Shown piece after piece: positions 4,564-24,355 of a stretch of 41,599 nt of DNA. A program made the translations under genes and the position numbers. The notes beneath the pieces were generated by a model. It saw only the letters and a program-made list of their open reading frames with translations. It did no database searches and was not told the DNA's origin. The stretch comes from Syntrophaceae bacterium (lineage in GTDB: Bacteria; Desulfobacterota; Syntrophia; Syntrophales; UBA5619): NCBI GenBank assembly GCA_003141195.1, contig PLLC01000098.1, positions 6,676-48,274 on the forward strand, written 5' to 3'. The stretch's first letter is position 1; each line of letters starts with the position of its first letter.

Positions 4564-7527
4564 ATGCACGTAAAAAACGTCTGCCCGCCCCCGACGTTTG
4601 CCGCCGGGGATAAGAGACATGGTTTCCATATCCTCCGGGTGGAGCAGATCCCGGAAATCCGGGTCACCGCTTATGAGATCGAACACGAAAGGACCGGGGC
4701 GAAGCTCCTGCACCTCCACTGCGACGACCGGGAGAACCTCTTCTCCATCGGTTTCCGGACACCGCCCAGGGATTCGACCGGCGTGCCCCACATCCTCGAA
4801 CATTCCGTGCTGGCCGGCTCCGAACGCTACCCCCTCAAGGACGTCTTCAACGAACTCCTGCGGGGAACGCTCCAGACCTTCATCAACGCCTTCACTTACC
4901 CCGATAAGACGATCTACCCCGTCGCCAGTCAGGAGAAGCGCGACTTCTTCAACCTTGCCCGGGTCTATACCGACCTGGTCCTCCGGCCGCGCCTCCTGCG
5001 GGAGACCTTCCTCCAGGAGGGCCACCATCTCGAATTCGATGCGAACGGGGAATTGGCCGTCTCCGGGATTGTCTACAACGAGATGAAGGGGGCCTACTCC
5101 TCGCCGGAGGCCCTGATGTACAAGGCCATCCAGGAAAACCTCTATCCGGAGACGCCCTACGCCTGCGACTCGGGGGGCGATCCCGAGAGGATTCCCGACC
5201 TGACTTACGAACAGTTCCGGGCATTCCACCGGACCTTCTATTCGCCGACGAACGCACGCCTCTTCCTCTCCGGAAACATCCCGACGGAGGAGCACCTCGC
5301 CTTTCTCGCGGAGATACTCGCCGGTTTCGATCGCGTCGCAGTCGATTCCTCCATTCTCATCCAGCCCCGCTGGAAAGATCCCCGGGCCGTTCACGGCTGC
5401 TTTCCCATCGACCGGGAAGAGAAATCAGAGGGAAAAACCACGGTGAATCTGGCCTGGATGACGGCGGAAAACACCGCCGGCGAGACGGCGATGAAGCTTG
5501 CGATCGTCGCCGATCTGCTCGTCGGCAGCGCAGCGTCCCCTCTCCGGAAGGCCCTCATCGATTCGGGCCTCGGGGAGGACCTTTCTCCGGTCACCGGCCT
5601 GGAGAGGGACCTGAAGCAGATCGCCTTCGCCGTCGGCCTCCGGGGGACGGACCCGGGCAAGGCCCCGCAAATCGAGGCCCTGATTCTCGATTCGCTGCGA
5701 GATGTGGCGGCCAAAGGGTTCGAACGGGAGCTGATCGAGGGCACCCTCCACCAAGTGGAATTTCACGGACGGGAGATGGTCCGCGGCAACTATCCCTATG
5801 GGATCGTCCTGATGGGGCGGGCCTATCACACCTGGCTTTATGACGGGGATCCCCTGACGGACATGAATTTCCCTCGCACGATCCATGAAATCCGCCGGAA
5901 ATGGGAGACCCATCCCGCCCTCTTCCGGGAGGCGGTGCGGCAATGGTTCCTCGACAATCCCCACCGTCTCCTCTCCGTCATGGAACCGAGCCGGACCTTC
6001 CAGGAGGAGCGGGAGCAGAAGGCCCGACAACGGCTGACCCGTCTCGCGGCCTCCCTTTCTGAGGAAGAAAAGGAACAGATCCGTCAGGAAACCCTGCTCC
6101 TGAAGCGGTTTCAGACGGAACCGGACCCACCGGAGGCGGCTGCGACCCTGCCGAAGCTCAGGATCGGCGACATCTCCCGCGAGATCGAAACGATCCCCAC
6201 GGAGAGAGCGGCCGCGGGCGGCGTCCCGATCCTTCGCCATGACCTTTTCACGAACGGCATCGCCTATCTCGATCTGGCCTTCGACGTCTCCGACATCCCC
6301 GAGGAGCTGCAAGCCTATCTGCCGCTTCTGGGAAAGCTCACCGTCCAGATGGGGGCGGCGGGACTCTCCTACGAAGCGATGGCGAAGCGGATCTCCCTGC
6401 GGACCGGCGGCCTGGGCGTCAATCTTGCCGCCGGTGCAACCGCCGACGGCAGCGGAAACTGGCAGAAGATGGTTTTTTCCGTCAAGGCCCTCTACCGGAA
6501 TGCGGATGAGGCGGTCGGGATCGTCCGGGATATCCTGACGGAGGGGGATCTGACCGACGCCGCCCGGATGCGGGAGCTGATCCTCGAAAAGAAGAACAAT
6601 CTCCACGCCTCGGTCATCCCCTCGGGTCATCTCTTCGCCCAGATGGCGGCCGCGGCGAGCCTTTCTCTCCCGGCCTGGCGGACCGAACAATGGCACGGGA
6701 GAACCCAGCTCCGTCTCATCGCCGGCACGGCTGACCGTCTGAGCGATCTTCGGGAGGATCTCCGGGAAAAGCTCGCACGTCTCCGCAAGATCGTCTTTGT
6801 CCGGAGACGGCTGCTCCTGAACATGACGGCCGACGCCGAGGGACTGCAAAGGCTCACCACAGCGGCCGATGCCCTGCTCGCGGCCCTGCCGGCCGGAAAT
6901 CCGCCGGAGAACCCGGAGGTGCGGAACCGCCGCCCCGTCCACATCGGGATCGCCATCCCCGCCGAGGTCTGCTATGTCGCCAAGGTCCTCGCGGCGCCTC
7001 CCTATGCCGATCCGCTTTCCGCCCCTCTTTTCGTCCTGGCGAGACAGCTTTCCAACGGCTATCTCTACCGCCATATCCGGGTTCAGGGAGGGGCTTACGG
7101 GGGATCCTGTCACTATGAACCGGTCAGCGGCCTGTTCGCCTTCCTCTCCTACCGGGACCCCCATCTGGCGGAAACAATCGATATCTACCGAAATGCCGTG
7201 GATTTTGTCTGCAACAACCCGGTCCCCCGGGAAGAACTGGAGAAAGCCGTGATCGGCACGATCGGCGCCCTCGACCGACCCTTGGATCCGGCCGGAAAGG
7301 GTTACACCGCCCTTATCCGGGAGTTTTCCGGTCTGACCGATCCGCTCCGCCACCGCTTCCGGGAAGAGGTGCTCGCCGTCGATCCGGAACGCCTGCAGGA
7401 GACTGCCCGGCGCTACTTCCCGCCGGCGTCGGGAGCGGCGGTTTTCGCCGTCTGCGCGCCGGAGGAGCGGCTCCGGAAGGCCAACGAAACCCTGGAACAG
7501 AAATTGGAGATTGAGAAATTGAGCTGA
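4564..7527 (+). CDS. M16C-family (insulinase-type) zinc metallopeptidase, presequence-protease-like
   Basis: A 987-residue protein with the inverted zinc motif HILEH at 76-80 (context GVPHILEHSVLAGS), which defines M16 peptidases. The downstream metal-ligand glutamate is in the YNEMKGAYSS block. Length and layout (two homologous halves, the M16C-associated middle region and a degenerate C-terminal half) match the PreP/CYM1 subfamily, which degrades short unfolded peptides inside a closed chamber. No signal peptide is evident (MHVKNVCPPPTF), so it is probably cytoplasmic and serves peptide recycling. ATG 4564 has AAAGGAAAG just upstream; an in-frame GTG at 4522 is less likely. The gene stands alone and converges on a small minus-strand gene 6 bp away. 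Confidence 0.88.
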   Translation: MHVKNVCPPPTFAAGDKRHGFHILRVEQIPEIRVTAYEIEHERTGAKLLHLHCDDRENLFSIGFRTPPRDSTGVPHILEHSVLAGSERYPLKDVFNELLRGTLQTFINAFTYPDKTIYPVASQEKRDFFNLARVYTDLVLRPRLLRETFLQEGHHLEFDANGELAVSGIVYNEMKGAYSSPEALMYKAIQENLYPETPYACDSGGDPERIPDLTYEQFRAFHRTFYSPTNARLFLSGNIPTEEHLAFLAEILAGFDRVAVDSSILIQPRWKDPRAVHGCFPIDREEKSEGKTTVNLAWMTAENTAGETAMKLAIVADLLVGSAASPLRKALIDSGLGEDLSPVTGLERDLKQIAFAVGLRGTDPGKAPQIEALILDSLRDVAAKGFERELIEGTLHQVEFHGREMVRGNYPYGIVLMGRAYHTWLYDGDPLTDMNFPRTIHEIRRKWETHPALFREAVRQWFLDNPHRLLSVMEPSRTFQEEREQKARQRLTRLAASLSEEEKEQIRQETLLLKRFQTEPDPPEAAATLPKLRIGDISREIETIPTERAAAGGVPILRHDLFTNGIAYLDLAFDVSDIPEELQAYLPLLGKLTVQMGAAGLSYEAMAKRISLRTGGLGVNLAAGATADGSGNWQKMVFSVKALYRNADEAVGIVRDILTEGDLTDAARMRELILEKKNNLHASVIPSGHLFAQMAAAASLSLPAWRTEQWHGRTQLRLIAGTADRLSDLREDLREKLARLRKIVFVRRRLLLNMTADAEGLQRLTTAADALLAALPAGNPPENPEVRNRRPVHIGIAIPAEVCYVAKVLAAPPYADPLSAPLFVLARQLSNGYLYRHIRVQGGAYGGSCHYEPVSGLFAFLSYRDPHLAETIDIYRNAVDFVCNNPVPREELEKAVIGTIGALDRPLDPAGKGYTALIREFSGLTDPLRHRFREEVLAVDPERLQETARRYFPPASGAAVFAVCAPEERLRKANETLEQKLEIEKLS

Positions 7528-7533
7528 TTCCGG

Positions 7534-7808
7534 TCACTCACTATGCGCGATGAGGCCGACCGACGCAAGCAGGACGATGACGGCTCCGATGCTGAAATAG
7601 AGGACGGTATAACCGGTCAGCTTATTTACTCCCTGGGCGACGAAGAGGTCGAAGTTGAAAACGTAACCCCAGTAGAGCATGAAACAGTAGTTAATGAACA
7701 GGGCCATTCTGAGGCGGCCGACGAGCAGGGCGACTGTGCTCAGGCTCACAGGAGCAGAATCAGTTGAACCGTGGGAACGGCCAGTTGTGTGGACGTAATG
7801 ATTTCCAT
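7534..7808 (-). pseudogene. Small three-helix membrane protein gene, apparently missing one base
   Basis: From ATG 7808, with AAGGAG at the right distance, the frame reads MEIITSTQLAVPTVQLILL and then a stop. The neighbouring frame continues seamlessly with PVSLSTVALLVGRLRMALF, NYCFMLYWGYVFNFDLF and YTVLYFSIGAVIVLLASVGL, and stops at 7534. The total is 275 nt, one short of a multiple of three. Restoring one C in the run at CTGCTCCTGTGAG gives LLPVSL and a 91-residue protein with about three membrane helices. Function is unknown. It converges on the peptidase gene. It may be truly frameshifted or a homopolymer sequencing error; both frames look protein-like, which argues against chance. Confidence 0.6.
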
Positions 7809-7982
7809 GGTGTTGTCTCCTTAAATCATGAAAGCTGATCAAGGCCTTGCGGCCGATACTCAGTTGTATCATCTTTGTTATTTCCGGGAATGTCAACGGA
7901 ATTGATTTCCCGATGTTTTCAGGGGAACAAGACAGGCACGTCGGACGCCGTCGGTTTCCGGGCAGAATGGAGGAATGGAATC

Positions 7983-14063: not shown

Positions 14064-15312
14064 CGCGCGACTCCTCCGAGAGATATCGCCAGACCATCAG
14101 GAGGGCGGCCTGGGAGGCCATAACCTTGTTCCGCCGCCTCTCCCAGCGGAAGGCGTAAGGACGGCAGACCGGCGTTCCGCCGTCGGCCAGCGCGATGAAG
14201 ACCGTCCCCACCGGCTTCGCCTCTGTCCCGCCGGAGGGACCCGCGATCCCCGTCACGGCGAGACCCAGACTGGTTCCCGCCGACTTCCGGACCCCTTCTG
14301 CCATCAGACGCGCCGTTTCGGCGCTCACCGCACCGTGCTCGCGGATCACCGCCTCCGGAACGCCGAGGAGGGCGGTCTTGGCCGCGTTGCCGTAGGTCAC
14401 GACCCCGCGTTCGAGAAAGGCGGAGCTGCCGGGGATGTCCGTGAGACGATCCGTGATCAGGCCGCCCGTGCAGGACTCGGCCACGGCGAGCGTAAGATTC
14501 CGCTCCGCCATCCGCCGGGCAACGTTTCCCGCGAGCGACTCCTCTCCTTTGGCGAAGATATATTTCGAAAGCCTTGCCTCGACCCTCGCCCCCGCCTCGC
14601 GAAGCTTTTCCCCGGCCACGTCCGCAGATGCCTCCCGCGCCGTCAGGACGAGGTGGTTTTCCGGAAAGTTCGGGTAGAAACCGATCCCGACGCCGAGGCC
14701 AGCGAGATCTGCATCGGCCATCGCCTCGTCCACCGCCGCCTCGGGGAGTCCGAAGAGCTTGAAGGTAACCGTCTCCACGTGCAGGGCGGCCTCCGGAAAC
14801 GCCTTCCGGAAAAGAGGGATCACCCTCTCAAAGAGCATCCGCCGCGCCTCGGCGGGGACGCCCGGGATGACCGCAACGATCCGTCCCGCCCGCCGCAGGG
14901 CGAAGCCGGCCGCCGTCCCCGTCGGGTTGGGGATGATCTCCGCCCCCTCCGGGAAGACGGCCTGTTTGGCGTTGTTCTCTGTCCATCGGAGCCCTCGTCC
15001 TTCAAAAATGGCCCGGATATGCGCGAGGACGGCGGGATCGCTGTACAGCCTCAGGCCGAAGGCCTTGGCCACGGCCGTCGTCGTGATGTCGTCGGCCGTG
15101 GGGCCAAGCCCCCCGGTCACGATCACAGCATCAACACGCGCCAGCAGATGGGCAAGCGCATCATGGATGGCGCCGTCGTCATCGCCCACGGACATCATCC
15201 CCGCGACCGACCATCCCTGCTCCTGCATCGCGCGGGCGATCAGGGCGGAATTGGTATCCTGGATCCGGCCGCTCGTCAACTCGTTTCCGATCGTCAATAT
15301 GCCGATTTTCAT
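14053..15312 (-). CDS. cinA: CinA family protein (NMN amidohydrolase-like, with molybdopterin-binding-like domain)
   Basis: A 419-residue protein. Residues 1-170 form the MoCF-like domain (MKIGILTIGNELTSGRIQDT, TGGLGPTADDITT, FPEGAEIIPNPTGTAAGF, VIPGVPAE). The C-terminal about 160 residues form the CinA/PncC domain (LAVAESCTGGLITDRLT, GVVTYGNAAKTALLGV, GIAGPSGG). The C-domain of relatives deamidates NMN in pyridine-nucleotide recycling; the N-domain of relatives hydrolyses ADP-ribose. ATG 15312 has GAGG upstream. The same reading frame stays open beyond the start, but that part is out-of-frame pgpA and not protein-like. It overlaps thpR by 11 nt. Confidence 0.93.
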   Translation of the reverse strand: MKIGILTIGNELTSGRIQDTNSALIARAMQEQGWSVAGMMSVGDDDGAIHDALAHLLARVDAVIVTGGLGPTADDITTTAVAKAFGLRLYSDPAVLAHIRAIFEGRGLRWTENNAKQAVFPEGAEIIPNPTGTAAGFALRRAGRIVAVIPGVPAEARRMLFERVIPLFRKAFPEAALHVETVTFKLFGLPEAAVDEAMADADLAGLGVGIGFYPNFPENHLVLTAREASADVAGEKLREAGARVEARLSKYIFAKGEESLAGNVARRMAERNLTLAVAESCTGGLITDRLTDIPGSSAFLERGVVTYGNAAKTALLGVPEAVIREHGAVSAETARLMAEGVRKSAGTSLGLAVTGIAGPSGGTEAKPVGTVFIALADGGTPVCRPYAFRWERRRNKVMASQAALLMVWRYLSEESRDDG

Positions 15313-15365
15313 GCAATACCTCGATATCCGATTTTCACAAGAGGCGCACCTTCGCACCCCCGTTC

Positions 15366-19794: not shown

Positions 19795-19878
19795 CTACTG
19801 ATCGGGTTCAATCGGTGCGCTCGTCATCGCCTGCAATCTGTCTCTCCAGTTCCTCCAAAGGCGGGAATCTTTCTTCAT
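19795..19878 (-). pseudogene. 27-codon ORF in the toxin position after mntA
   Basis: ATG at 19878 overlaps the mntA stop as ATGA and has AAGGAGG 10 nt upstream, an arrangement made for a coupled partner gene. The frame closes after 27 residues (MKKDSRLWRNWRDRLQ...). HepT/HEPN toxins normally occupy this slot and often begin MKKD-like, but the rest is missing. I read it as a truncated remnant; homology cannot be proven from so few residues. Confidence 0.35.
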
Positions 19879-20165
19879 ATTGGCCGTGCCTCCTTGAGAA
19901 TTTTCCGACGTAAAAGCCAATATAGGCCATCTTCGGATACCACATCCACTTTTGCACCAAGCAGGTCCTTCAGATCCAGGACCAGAGCGCTCAGATCCAG
20001 CAAGTTACGCCCCTCTTCCATCTTCACCAGCAGATCGACGTCGCTTTCCGGGCCGGGTTCGCCTCTGGCAACCGAACCGAAAACGCGGATGTTCCGCGCG
20101 CCATGCTTTGCCGCAAGAAGCATAACGGCATCGCGTTTTTCTTTCAGCCGTTTTTCGATTTCCAT
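19875..20165 (-). CDS. MntA-type nucleotidyltransferase-domain antitoxin
   Basis: A 96-residue minimal nucleotidyltransferase with the canonical GSX10DXD motif (GSVARGEPGPESDVD) after IRVF and preceded by a helical N-terminus (MEIEKRLKEKRDAVMLLAA). A further acidic strand follows (KVDVVSEDG). Proteins of this size usually act as antitoxins that AMPylate a HEPN toxin encoded next door. ATG 20165 has GGAGG at 20175-20179. The partner toxin is reduced to a 27-codon ORF, so this antitoxin appears orphaned. Confidence 0.8.
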   Translation of the reverse strand: MEIEKRLKEKRDAVMLLAAKHGARNIRVFGSVARGEPGPESDVDLLVKMEEGRNLLDLSALVLDLKDLLGAKVDVVSEDGLYWLLRRKILKEARPI

Positions 20166-20179
20166 CACAGGATGCCTCC

Positions 20180-20825: not shown

Positions 20826-21956
20826 TCACGCCTCACCGGCGCGAGACCCGCGGCGGGTCTCGCGTACGTGTGAAGGCGATTGTTGGGACTTGTATATCTT
20901 ACGCTCCTCCAGAAGAACCATCTGTCTCGCCTCCGAGGTCATATCTTCGAGTGCATCACGTGATGTCTTGACTTTCCGCTCTGATCCAAGGCTGCAGACG
21001 ATGTCATCAAGAACCAGACTTGCATCATCCACTTGAAGTTGCCCAAGAATACGCCGGACAACCTCCACGCTTCGCCCTTCAAGAAACCGAAACGCGGAGG
21101 AAAGAAGATATTCCTTGTCCTGCTCAAACGTGAGCCATTTCCTTCTGAGTGCTTCGGCTGCAAAACCTGTCGTATTTGAGCCACCAAATATGTCGAGGAC
21201 AACATCACCCTCATCAGTAAGCATTTTTATGAAAAATGCGGGCAACTCGGGGGGGAAGCGTGCCGGGTGGCGCTGTAGCCCAAGTTCTTTGCAGAGCCAG
21301 AGGTAACTGGAGTTGCTATCAGTGTTTGGAATGGTCAAAAGGTTGGAGGGGATCGCGCCTCCATTATCCTTGCCAAAGTTTGCACTAATGTCATGCCCGG
21401 ATGGCCGCTTCTTCGGCTTGTAAAAGCTATCGGGATCCTGGATCAGTTTCTTCATCCGCTCGGAATATGGTGCGAGCACTTTTCTGACATCGGCTTTCGG
21501 CGTGTCCGTCTTGCCAAACCACCAAATCGTATTAACGGAGTCCTTCACGCGAATCTTGCGCTTGTTTACCCATTCGATTGGCGAGGGTAGTTTTGCTGGA
21601 TTAAACCAGTAGAAGTCCTCGGCTAAATGAAATCCCACATCGTCGCAGAGTGTTAAGAGAACTCGGAAGTTGTAGAGCGAGCGCGACGGGATGCCTGCCC
21701 GATATGCCCCGCCCAAATCCAAGACAAAACTGCCGCTTCTCTTCAGAACTCGCAACACTTCTTTACTGAAAGGCGTAATCCACGTGACGTACTCTGTTTC
21801 CTCAACATTTCCGTAGGATTTTTGTCGCCTGAGCGCAAACGGCGGAGATGTCATCACAAGATCAATGCTCTCGTCGGGTAACTCGCTTAGCAGAGCAAGT
21901 GCGTCACCAACGAAAGCACGTCCTTGTTTCGTACAATAAAGAGGTTTGCTTCGCAT
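20826..21956 (-). CDS. Site-specific DNA methyltransferase, beta class (m4C or m6A)
   Basis: A 376-residue SAM-dependent methyltransferase. The catalytic motif IV, TSPPF, comes first (36-40) and the SAM-binding motif I, DIFGGSNTT (255-263), comes second, the beta-class order. SPPF is more typical of N4-cytosine enzymes than of DPPY m6A enzymes. HPARFPPELPAFFIKMLT ahead of motif I is standard for the family. The start ATG 21956 is 1 nt after the stop of the HEAT-repeat protein gene, so the two are cotranscribed. The last residues (VRETRRGSRAGEA) are encoded by an 11-bp palindrome, which may be an inserted repeat that extended the protein. Confidence 0.88.
   Translation of the reverse strand: MRSKPLYCTKQGRAFVGDALALLSELPDESIDLVMTSPPFALRRQKSYGNVEETEYVTWITPFSKEVLRVLKRSGSFVLDLGGAYRAGIPSRSLYNFRVLLTLCDDVGFHLAEDFYWFNPAKLPSPIEWVNKRKIRVKDSVNTIWWFGKTDTPKADVRKVLAPYSERMKKLIQDPDSFYKPKKRPSGHDISANFGKDNGGAIPSNLLTIPNTDSNSSYLWLCKELGLQRHPARFPPELPAFFIKMLTDEGDVVLDIFGGSNTTGFAAEALRRKWLTFEQDKEYLLSSAFRFLEGRSVEVVRRILGQLQVDDASLVLDDIVCSLGSERKVKTSRDALEDMTSEARQMVLLEERKIYKSQQSPSHVRETRRGSRAGEA
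20840..20864. repeat. Perfect 11-bp hairpin inside the methyltransferase 3' end
   Basis: CGCGAGACCCG (20840-20850) and CGGGTCTCGCG (20854-20864) form an 11-bp stem with a 3-nt loop. It lies in the last codons of the methyltransferase gene. It could be a REP-like insertion or a terminator-like structure; no T-run follows on the minus strand. Confidence 0.6.
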
Positions 21957-21957
21957 T

Positions 21958-23433
21958 CTAGTATTCCGTCAGGCCATCGACCCAACTTGCCAGAATCTGC
22001 CAGAGAACACTTGCCGCAAAGTAGACCTCGGGGTCTGATCTACAAATTGCGTCAACGTCTTGTTCGGCAAGCTTGTCTTTCCCGTGCCCAATAATGTAGC
22101 TGATCCACCGTCTGAGATTGTCATCGGCATCTCGCAGAACATCCCGAGGGTTGAAGCCTCCGGTCTTGGCAAGGGCCCATGAGATTCCATCCCGTCGTGA
22201 TGGATCACTATTTTTTAGCAGTTCCACGAGATGGGCTATCTGTGGTTCAGCGATCTTCAAGAGTGCTCGCGCCGCTTCTGTCTTGATCTCCAATGCGGTA
22301 GAATTGAAAGTGTCAACCAGTGCAGTTGCGGTTGTTGCGGTCGCAAACTGCCCAAGCGCCCAAGCTGCGCCCGCGCGAATCTCTTCATCCCGTCCGGCAT
22401 CCTGCAACACCTCGATCAGCAGGCGCTCGCTTCGGTCCTTGGGAATCTCCGACACCACGATAACGGTTTCAAGTTGCGTTTCAAGGGGAACGTCCAACAC
22501 GGAACTTCTCAACTTGGCCTCCATGAATGCCCAGCCGGTAGGGTGGTCATAGGCTGCGAGGGCTGCTGCTGCCTCAAGTTGGACGTAAATGTCCTCCTGG
22601 GAATGGTTCATTCGCTCTTCGAGTGCCGGATGAGCGGTTGTATATCCGCGGAACCTTAGTGCTTTGGCGGCAGCATAGCGCTCGCTCAGGTTTATGCTTC
22701 CAAGCTTTCCGATAAAGGAGGCCTCATCGACTTGCGTCGGACACGTAAGCGTGAGGTGTACGGGCACGACAGCCGCAACAATCTGATTTGTTTCGACAGC
22801 ATCGTTCACTTGAACCTGTGGGGTCAGGCTTATTGCGCCTTTGCTTCGACTCAACTGGATGGTCTGGCATCGCGCGGGAGGAGGAGGCTGCAAGCGGAGT
22901 CTCTTTGGAGAGACTTCAGAAATCGTTGATTTCTGGCTGGCAACTGCGCATGTCCACAGCACCCGGATTTCTGATCCTTCTTCAACACCTTTCGGTTTCG
23001 TGATTGATATGCGTTTTGCAGCAAAAGCATCTCGTAAGTCCTTCACGCTGATGAAATGAACCGGAGAAATGCGTCTCAGGTCTACGGGAGACTCGGCGTT
23101 CTGCTCAAAAACGACAATCGAAACATAATCGTCGTCTCGCATACCTGCATCCCACGTTCGCCTTGGGTCTTTCAGCGAGTGGGACATGGAGATTTCCGGT
23201 TTTGTCTTGCCTCGGGATTCAAAGCGGAGTCCGGTATTCAGACAGAGAATGTCCGGAACACGGACGCGCTTGATCTTGATCTTCTTCCATATCTTGAATC
23301 CGGTGGAGCCGCGCTCAAGTTCTATCGGGTTGAAGCCCATTGCCGTCAAACGCTCGATTGTCGCATTAGTACCTGCGGCGCCGACCGCAAGCTTTCTGAG
23401 GAAGCTGTCATCGCTCTTGAAGTTACTCGCCAC
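21958..23433 (-). CDS. Putative restriction endonuclease: nuclease-like N-domain fused to HEAT repeats
   Basis: A 491-residue protein. The N-terminal about 115 residues run GAAGTNATIERLTAMGFNPI (19-38), then VPD (59-61), then FESRGKTK (71-78) and a D-rich DDDYVSIVVFE (101-110). PD and E-S-R/K spaced by about 10 residues resemble a PD-(D/E)XK nuclease core with a variant third residue. Residues about 240-485 are alpha-helical HEAT-like repeats (AAAKALRFRGY, QLEAAAALAAYDHP, GAAWALGQFATATTA, EAARALLKIAEP, GISWALAKTGG). GTG 23433 follows AAGGGTGG. It sits 1 nt before the methyltransferase start, so a restriction-modification role is likely. Nuclease activity is inferred, not seen. Confidence 0.6.
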   Translation of the reverse strand: MASNFKSDDSFLRKLAVGAAGTNATIERLTAMGFNPIELERGSTGFKIWKKIKIKRVRVPDILCLNTGLRFESRGKTKPEISMSHSLKDPRRTWDAGMRDDDYVSIVVFEQNAESPVDLRRISPVHFISVKDLRDAFAAKRISITKPKGVEEGSEIRVLWTCAVASQKSTISEVSPKRLRLQPPPPARCQTIQLSRSKGAISLTPQVQVNDAVETNQIVAAVVPVHLTLTCPTQVDEASFIGKLGSINLSERYAAAKALRFRGYTTAHPALEERMNHSQEDIYVQLEAAAALAAYDHPTGWAFMEAKLRSSVLDVPLETQLETVIVVSEIPKDRSERLLIEVLQDAGRDEEIRAGAAWALGQFATATTATALVDTFNSTALEIKTEAARALLKIAEPQIAHLVELLKNSDPSRRDGISWALAKTGGFNPRDVLRDADDNLRRWISYIIGHGKDKLAEQDVDAICRSDPEVYFAASVLWQILASWVDGLTEY

Positions 23434-23729
23434 GGTGCCACCCTTATCTGTTATTGCTAATAGTCATTGTCTGCTGCGATGCCGTTTTTCGGCCCATCAA
23501 GTTATTCTAAAGTTTCTGGATAACTCCACGCCCCACGGGAATCTTCAGGGCTCTATGCAATGACCATTTATCTGTTGTCTTTGCACTCGCGGACTACCGG
23601 CTTCCTCTATCCATTTCTAAGTATTCTAAAATGACACTAATCCCGTGATAATTTTTTCACAACCATTTATTTTTATTTTTCGGTATATCATATCAATATA
23701 AAGATTATGAAGAAGATGGAGGATTCCAC
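23434..23729. other. AT-richer spacer upstream of the restriction-modification unit
   Basis: It contains no long ORF. It probably holds the minus-strand promoter of the nuclease-methyltransferase pair on its left side and, near 23660-23720, an AT-rich stretch ahead of a possible small plus-strand ORF. No promoter is clear enough to place. Confidence 0.4.
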
Positions 23730-23831
23730 ATGCTGGCACCTCACAGAGTCGGCCGTACATATCATAATTTCCGAGGAAATAAAATCAATGATTACGCGTT
23801 TCTATACGAACCGGCTCACTTGAGCCGATAG
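23730..23831 (+). CDS. Possible 33-residue small protein
   Basis: ATG 23730 is preceded by GGAGG at an ideal 7-nt distance (GATGGAGGATTCCAC) and reads MLAPHRVGRTYHNFRGNKIN with a stop at 23829-23831. The sequence is basic and aromatic with no recognisable family. Its 3' end overlaps the relE 3' end on the other strand by 16 nt. Only the ribosome-binding site argues for it. Confidence 0.3.
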   Translation: MLAPHRVGRTYHNFRGNKINDYAFLYEPAHLSR

Positions 23832-24079
23832 ACATCTTTTCTTTGGCCGATTTTTACCACCCACACGGTTAATTCATCGTCCCGGAGGGCGTAAAGGATT
23901 CGGTAAGTTCCCTGACGGATTCGGTAGCGCTCCTGCCCCGTGAGTTTCTCACACCCGGGCGGGCGTGGGTCCACGGCAAGCGCCGCGATGCGCTTCATGA
24001 TTTGTTGAAGAGATTTCTTGGGAATTTTTTCGATGTCCTGCCAGACAGACTTTCGAAAGAAAATCCTATATTCGGCCAT
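23816..24079 (-). CDS. RelE/ParE-family toxin
   Basis: An 87-residue RelE-fold protein (YRIFFRKSVWQDIEKIPKKS, CEKLTGQERYRIRQGTYRIL, ELTVWVVKIGQRKDVY). RelE toxins cleave mRNA on the ribosome. The conserved core R-x-R-x-G-x-YR-x-x-Y is intact and the length is normal. The start overlaps the antitoxin stop by 14 nt, the standard antitoxin-first order. Unlike the two other toxin loci nearby, this pair looks complete. Confidence 0.9.
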   Translation of the reverse strand: MAEYRIFFRKSVWQDIEKIPKKSLQQIMKRIAALAVDPRPPGCEKLTGQERYRIRQGTYRILYALRDDELTVWVVKIGQRKDVYRLK

Positions 24080-24299
24080 CTTTCTTCAGCCTCTTCAGGA
24101 TGTCCTCATAACCGATCAACGGCTCGTTGGCCCGCTCCTCAAACGCCGCAAGGTCCTCAGCATCCTCGGCGAGGGTTTCCCGAACGGCATTGTTGACCAA
24201 TTCCGAAACAGATCGGGAAGTCTCCGCCGACTTCATCCGCAACGCCTGGTGCAAGGCAGAATCGAAATAGATCGTGGCCCGTTTCGTTCCAGTTTCCAT
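24066..24299 (-). CDS. Ribbon-helix-helix antitoxin (CopG/RelB-like)
   Basis: A 77-residue protein. METGTKRATIYFDSALHQAL is a classic RHH beta strand and helix, then SETSRSVSELVNNAVRETL follows. The acidic C-terminal tail (AEDAEDLAAFEERANEPL) would wrap the toxin. ATG 24299 has AGGAGG upstream. It is first in the operon and likely autorepresses through the repeats at 24324-24354. Confidence 0.88.
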   Translation of the reverse strand: METGTKRATIYFDSALHQALRMKSAETSRSVSELVNNAVRETLAEDAEDLAAFEERANEPLIGYEDILKRLKKDGRI

Positions 24300-24323
24300 G
24301 GTGTAACCTCCTAAGGTCTTTGC

Positions 24324-24355
24324 AGCACCATAGCACCATGACGCCATAACGTCAA
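24324..24355 (-). promoter_or_regulatory. Toxin-antitoxin promoter with operator repeats
   Basis: On the minus strand, TTGACG (24355-24350) is a -35 box and TATGGT-like sequence is near the -10. Two exact tandem AGCACCAT repeats (24324-24331 and 24332-24339) and a palindrome TGACG-N6-CGTCA (24339-24354) overlap it. RHH antitoxins commonly bind short tandem or inverted repeats at their own promoter. Confidence 0.55.

Follow-up and report, generated by a model that had tools for sequence, protein, structure and literature searches.

The window, the whole 41,599-nt stretch of Syntrophaceae bacterium DNA that was analysed, carries two tandem genes, one for a 491-aa HEAT-repeat protein and one for a 376-aa DNA methyltransferase, and raises the question of whether they form a restriction-modification system in which the HEAT protein cuts DNA. 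We favor, with a probability of about 0.82, an orthodox Type II system with CAGCTG as its predicted target, in which the 491-aa protein is an independently acting endonuclease that replaces R.PvuII. The 491-aa gene lies upstream, and a single nucleotide (21957) separates it from the methyltransferase gene. Both reading frames, this gap and the methyltransferase motifs TSPPF and DIFGGSNTT had been described in the original prediction, and all were found in place. The features of the pair are as follows.

20826..21956, minus strand: M.PvuII-type N4-cytosine DNA methyltransferase gene, 376 aa, ATG start; predicted target CAGCTG
21958..23433, minus strand: HEAT protein gene, 491 aa, GTG start (ORF list); putative Type II restriction endonuclease
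23014..23433, minus strand: N-terminal domain, residues 1-140, presumed PD-(D/E)xK-like nuclease (predicted secondary structure and conservation)
23206..23256, minus strand: PD-x10-ESRGK motif, residues 60-76 (homolog alignment)
23251..23328, minus strand: basic segment, residues 36-61, candidate DNA-binding loop (conservation and model)
22759..22953, minus strand: middle beta domain, residues 161-225 (VIA-align to bacterial RNA polymerase beta and a weak profile match)
21982..22725, minus strand: HEAT-repeat array, residues 237-484, about seven helix pairs (Pfam HEAT_2 and AlphaFold2 helices)
20880..23470, minus strand: DNA block common to the window and its nearest relative, L031, at 85% identity

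Genes for a ParE-type toxin and a ribbon-helix-helix antitoxin are situated directly upstream of the pair (window positions 23816-24347 and 19875-20168 are listed), and a nucleotidyltransferase-domain gene lies downstream of it.

The methyltransferase and its predicted target

The 376-aa enzyme is an ortholog of M.PvuII, which makes N4-methylcytosine in CAGCTG, and CAGCTG is therefore predicted as its target. It matches the M.PvuII structure 1boo over residues 3-303 (E 1.4e-135) and is 61.8% identical to the protein encoded by pPvu1 (NC_002632), the original Proteus vulgaris PvuII plasmid. PADLOC MTase_II (E 1e-150) and Pfam N6_N4_Mtase (E 3e-39) also match, and the TSPPF catalytic motif (T36-F40) is invariant in the alignment; full-length homology together with this motif places the enzyme in the M.PvuII family of beta-class N4-cytosine methyltransferases. 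At one related locus, L022 in a Chlorobiaceae bin (G710:C5:97287-112820), four full or partial M.PvuII-type methyltransferase copies are present within 16 kb.

Avoidance of CAGCTG, a target set before any count was made, was measured against maximum-order Markov expectations in 23 genomes carrying the HEAT protein (1.0 Mb sampled) and 31 non-carriers (0.67 Mb). Carriers contained 49 sites where 246 were expected (0.20), as against 129 of 208 (0.62) in non-carriers, and CAGCTG ranked first among the 64 palindromic hexamers for the contrast between carriers and controls. The per-genome medians of observed over expected were 0.04 and 0.58, respectively (Mann-Whitney p 2e-4). The window's own genome has 19 sites versus 66 expected, and in the cassette flanks, where 21 were observed and 82 expected, CAGCTG again ranked first. 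Avoidance of the predicted site supports a Type II system without strictly defining one, and in a survey of thousands of genomes it arose only from Type II systems with an independent endonuclease and methyltransferase (PMC4687349). Avoidance by itself does not prove which protein is the cutter. It was the same at loci with a broken and an intact HEAT gene (0.28 vs 0.24), so that comparison is uninformative. Some controls without the system are also low in CAGCTG (G385, 2 observed and 17.7 expected; G416, 0 and 12.7). The samples of G385, G416 and G182 show strong avoidance, and no M.PvuII relative was found in them; these are perhaps traces of a lost system, or of an unrelated one.

The pair could in principle be a restriction-modification system that recognizes a site other than CAGCTG, or that cuts at a distance from it, with recognition and cleavage split between the HEAT and nuclease domains. 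An identity of about 60% to M.PvuII leaves specificity unfixed, and the endonuclease is unrelated to R.PvuII, but we regard this variant as unlikely given that CAGCTG, predicted in advance, gave the top contrast among 64 palindromes.

Partners of the methyltransferase and the R.PvuII slot

A scan of GTDB species genomes identified 32 loci related to the 491-aa protein at 41-88% identity, mostly 70-88%. The genomes are labelled Pseudomonadota, Chlorobiota, Planctomycetota, Armatimonadota, Verrucomicrobiota, Thermodesulfobacteriota, Cyanobacteriota, Actinomycetota and others; many are metagenome bins, and the phyla are given as labelled. Within the window's phylum the protein occurs in about 1% of genomes (4/395). 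Wherever the contig reaches far enough to show the adjacent gene (30 loci), an M.PvuII-type methyltransferase directly follows the HEAT gene, without exception. The arrangement is that of a Type II restriction-modification system: a methyltransferase gene with a separate, putative restriction gene adjacent to it, the two being co-inherited (30/30 loci, and movement as a block, below). No third gene is conserved around the pair, including a gene for a C protein.

PvuII is a textbook restriction enzyme, and the PvuII system of pPvu1 (M.PvuII, R.PvuII and C.PvuII) shares with the window pair an orthologous methyltransferase, an expected CAGCTG target and an adjoining restriction gene. It differs in having C.PvuII and divergent genes, whereas the window pair is in tandem and has no conserved C protein gene, and in the restriction protein itself. 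R.PvuII is a small PD-(D/E)xK enzyme with a subunit of 18.3 kDa (PMC4081073); the window's 491-aa protein has several domains, and no homology between the two was detected. Three classes of R.PvuII orthologs have been published, including C-REase fusions, each retaining R.PvuII (PMC3850674). The window pair resembles them as a PvuII-type variation around a related methyltransferase, but in it R.PvuII is replaced.

Other M.PvuII-type methyltransferases with at least 53% identity to the window's enzyme were used for comparison. At 12 of these other loci the neighbour of the methyltransferase is an R.PvuII homolog, in many cases accompanied by a C protein, and in a maximum-likelihood tree the HEAT-linked and R.PvuII-linked methyltransferases form one well-supported clade. 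No R.PvuII homolog was found anywhere in 25 genomes carrying the HEAT protein, while the positive control, G149, was detected. Alignment of the N-terminal domain with R.PvuII by hhalign gave a probability of 0.4% over a 14-column match, which does not place the domain in the R.PvuII family. Because the domain shows no profile homology to R.PvuII, the HEAT protein looks like an unrelated replacement rather than a diverged form, although the profiles are shallow and a very remote common ancestry is possible. An M.PvuII-type lineage would then have given up its small partner and acquired a large one that has three domains and no relation to it. The possibility, raised at the outset, that the methyltransferase lacks this partner in most genomes does not apply to the near clade; distant M.PvuII relatives are found with R.PvuII or with other proteins. 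Distant M.PvuII-type enzymes (52-56% identity) at L063, L064, L065, L066 and L070, for instance, adjoin different proteins (182, 330, 333 and 458 aa), possibly additional restriction enzymes of unrelated origin.

The HEAT gene is broken by stops, frameshifts or deletions at 10 loci among L002-L034. The methyltransferase is visible and intact at nine of these ten, and the reverse case occurs once, at L002. This asymmetry agrees with a restriction gene, whose loss is harmless; it carries modest weight, being 9 versus 1 between genes of unequal length in draft assemblies, and some of the frameshifts may be assembly errors. Taken together, the conserved pairing, the occupation of the R.PvuII slot, decay of the 491-aa gene beside a retained methyltransferase and CAGCTG avoidance give good support to the restriction-modification reading proposed originally.

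Domains of the 491-aa protein

An AlphaFold2 model built with 19 homologs reached a mean pLDDT of 83.4 and a pTM of 0.80 for the full protein, and 84.6 and 0.83 for residues 1-236 alone. Three parts follow one another: a nuclease-like N-terminal domain, a middle beta domain and a HEAT array. The original prediction had the first and the last but overlooked the domain between them (about 161-225). The HEAT repeats it described are borne out by a Pfam HEAT_2 match in four stretches (E 1.5e-15) and by the helical array modelled at residues 237-484, and profile match and modelled solenoid together make this a HEAT-repeat protein.

Residues 1-140 are modelled as an alpha helix, strands at 36-38, 62-64, 70-76, 81-86 and 103-112, and a helix at 130-138. 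Residues 1-120 are the best-conserved domain (87% mean identity across close homologs). Of the proposed PD...ESR/K core, PD (60-61) and ESRGK (72-76) were found, but the canonical PD-(D/E)xK lysine position (E+2) is occupied by R74, and K76 sits at E+4. D61, E72, R74 and K76 are invariant in 19/19 aligned homologs, four of them with 41-44% overall identity; in the model D61 lies just before one strand and the other three on the next. The segment at 36-61 (PIELERGS..FKIWK.IKIKR.R.PD) is basic and nearly invariant (identity 99% among close homologs, 81-88% among distant ones), with low model confidence at residues 42-55. It is a candidate DNA-binding loop that may become ordered on DNA.

The conserved motif and predicted secondary structure make the N-terminal domain a likely, putative PD-(D/E)xK-type catalytic domain, in keeping with the nuclease originally proposed. 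Structure searches added no solved nuclease to that proposal: in Foldseek and VIA-align comparisons with residues 1-236, RNA polymerase beta occupied the match lists and no solved nuclease fold was matched. Because polymerase matches fill the lists, the absence of a nuclease match for residues 1-140 is uninformative. Weak viral matches appeared in the structure comparison, one of them to a VRR-NUC protein. This nuclease-like part is in no family library searched: Pfam, PADLOC and NCBIfam contained no restriction-enzyme family for residues 1-140, and residues 1-236 gave chance-level or weak matches in Pfam, PADLOC and PHROGs (phrog_9902, E 0.0025 at residues 122-164, in 12 members). Matches of the N-terminal domain to ribosomal L14 in a sequence search of solved structures were attributed to chance. 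The nuclease assignment is the weakest link of the case.

Residues 161-225 resemble bacterial RNA polymerase beta (VIA-align Z ~10, rmsd ~2, 62-66 residues, 16-24% identity), and the best, weak match of the sequence profile of residues 152-236 was to the same segment of plastid beta (E 0.19). DNA glycosylases of the AlkD/AlkC type are HEAT solenoids able to bind DNA. The 491-aa protein shares the solenoid with them but has no glycosylase match, and a nuclease-like domain is joined to its HEAT repeats. Pfam, PADLOC and the freely accessible literature searched yielded no restriction enzyme of a HEAT or polymerase-like kind.

These features would also suit a non-nuclease accessory or sensor of the methyltransferase, such as a regulator, or an effector of abortive infection that responds when methylation is lost. 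Restriction enzymes seldom have HEAT repeats or an RNA-polymerase-like domain, and RNA polymerase beta fills match lists in which no nuclease fold appears. Yet the HEAT gene occupies the R.PvuII slot in carriers that have no other R.PvuII, these carriers avoid CAGCTG, the acidic/basic motif is conserved, and it is the HEAT gene that decays while the methyltransferase is kept; an accessory or sensor role is on balance improbable.

Pairing, methyltransferase orthology, CAGCTG avoidance, lack of R.PvuII in carriers, asymmetric decay, attC sites and domain order are computational results; for the Type II system that we favor, we infer the cutting activity, the catalytic residues, the exact specificity and what the middle and HEAT domains do, as follows. 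The 376-aa enzyme would add an N4-methyl group to the cytosine of host CAGCTG sites, and the 491-aa protein would cleave unmethylated CAGCTG in incoming DNA independently of the methyltransferase. The PD...ESRGK N-terminal domain would supply the likely PD-(D/E)xK-type catalysis, and the RNA-polymerase-beta-like domain and HEAT solenoid presumably hold DNA or a partner subunit; the original prediction gave the repeats a possible part in recognition or in sensing. The 491-aa enzyme would take the place of R.PvuII next to the shared methyltransferase, with no C protein involved, and the two genes would have reached widely separated bacteria, travelling in several lineages as an integron gene cassette. 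A more speculative extension, which we consider quite doubtful, is that the polymerase-like domain and the solenoid license or target cleavage, for instance through binding of the factors or DNA-protein complexes with which RNA polymerase normally associates; cutting would then respond to the invader's state in addition to the unmethylated site. The pair raises the questions of what part the HEAT solenoid and the polymerase-like domain play in DNA recognition and cutting, and of how one methyltransferase comes to change its restriction partner.

Mobility of the pair

Outside 20880-23470 the window shares nothing with its nearest relative, L031; the flanks are unrelated, and the pair therefore moves as a unit. 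An empty insertion site was sought in the relative G385, which has only rmuC in common with the window and a different gene order. Searches of plasmid and phage records returned no relatives of the 491-aa protein. At several loci the pair has the ends of an integron gene cassette, with TTGGGCGTC starting the sequence 5' of the HEAT gene and GACGCCCAAC...hairpin...GTTRRRY 3' of the methyltransferase. An attC model built from six sites places attC just 3' of the methyltransferase in eight loci, two of them outside the model (L002, E 2.7e-19; L018, E 4e-13), and at L007 it matches immediately 5' of the HEAT gene (E 2.4e-8). As a control, further matches of the model adjoin bona fide integron integrases. 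In several lineages an attC follows the genes on their 3' side, and at least eight loci carry the pair as an integron gene cassette complete with its own attC; such cassettes offer a concrete means by which it could have spread so widely. The window copy is not classed as a current cassette because the attC model found no match within the window. In the passages of PMC12444791 that cite Darracq 2025, Kieffer 2025 and Getz 2025, integron defence genes, restriction-modification included, are attC-tagged cassettes, and the carriage of several loci of the pair is to that extent alike.

That the methyltransferase is a solitary enzyme, housekeeping or phage-derived, beside an unrelated HEAT neighbour can be dismissed as very unlikely on the pairing alone (30/30 loci) and also goes against the 1-nt spacing, the block movement between unrelated flanks and the attC at the pair's end, even though viral contigs (L038, L040, L044) carry M.PvuII-type methylases with no recognisable adjoining restriction gene.

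The window's own genome has no full integron integrase above the cut-off; elsewhere in it (L087, G000:C3) attC-like matches lie about 1 kb apart, at 14225-14286 and 15264-15327, possibly a cassette cluster lacking an integrase. At L002 the pair is preceded by an integron integrase (TIGR02249, E 7.8e-112), a ThsB-type TIR gene and a small membrane-protein-like gene, in that order; positions 5483-7947 there form a small defence cluster within the integron, in which ThsB-type TIR and SLATT-like membrane protein genes precede the pair. A similar order is seen at L021 (G709:C24:157188), where, upstream of 7998, an integron integrase remnant, a ThsB-type TIR gene and a SLATT-like gene are followed by the pair.
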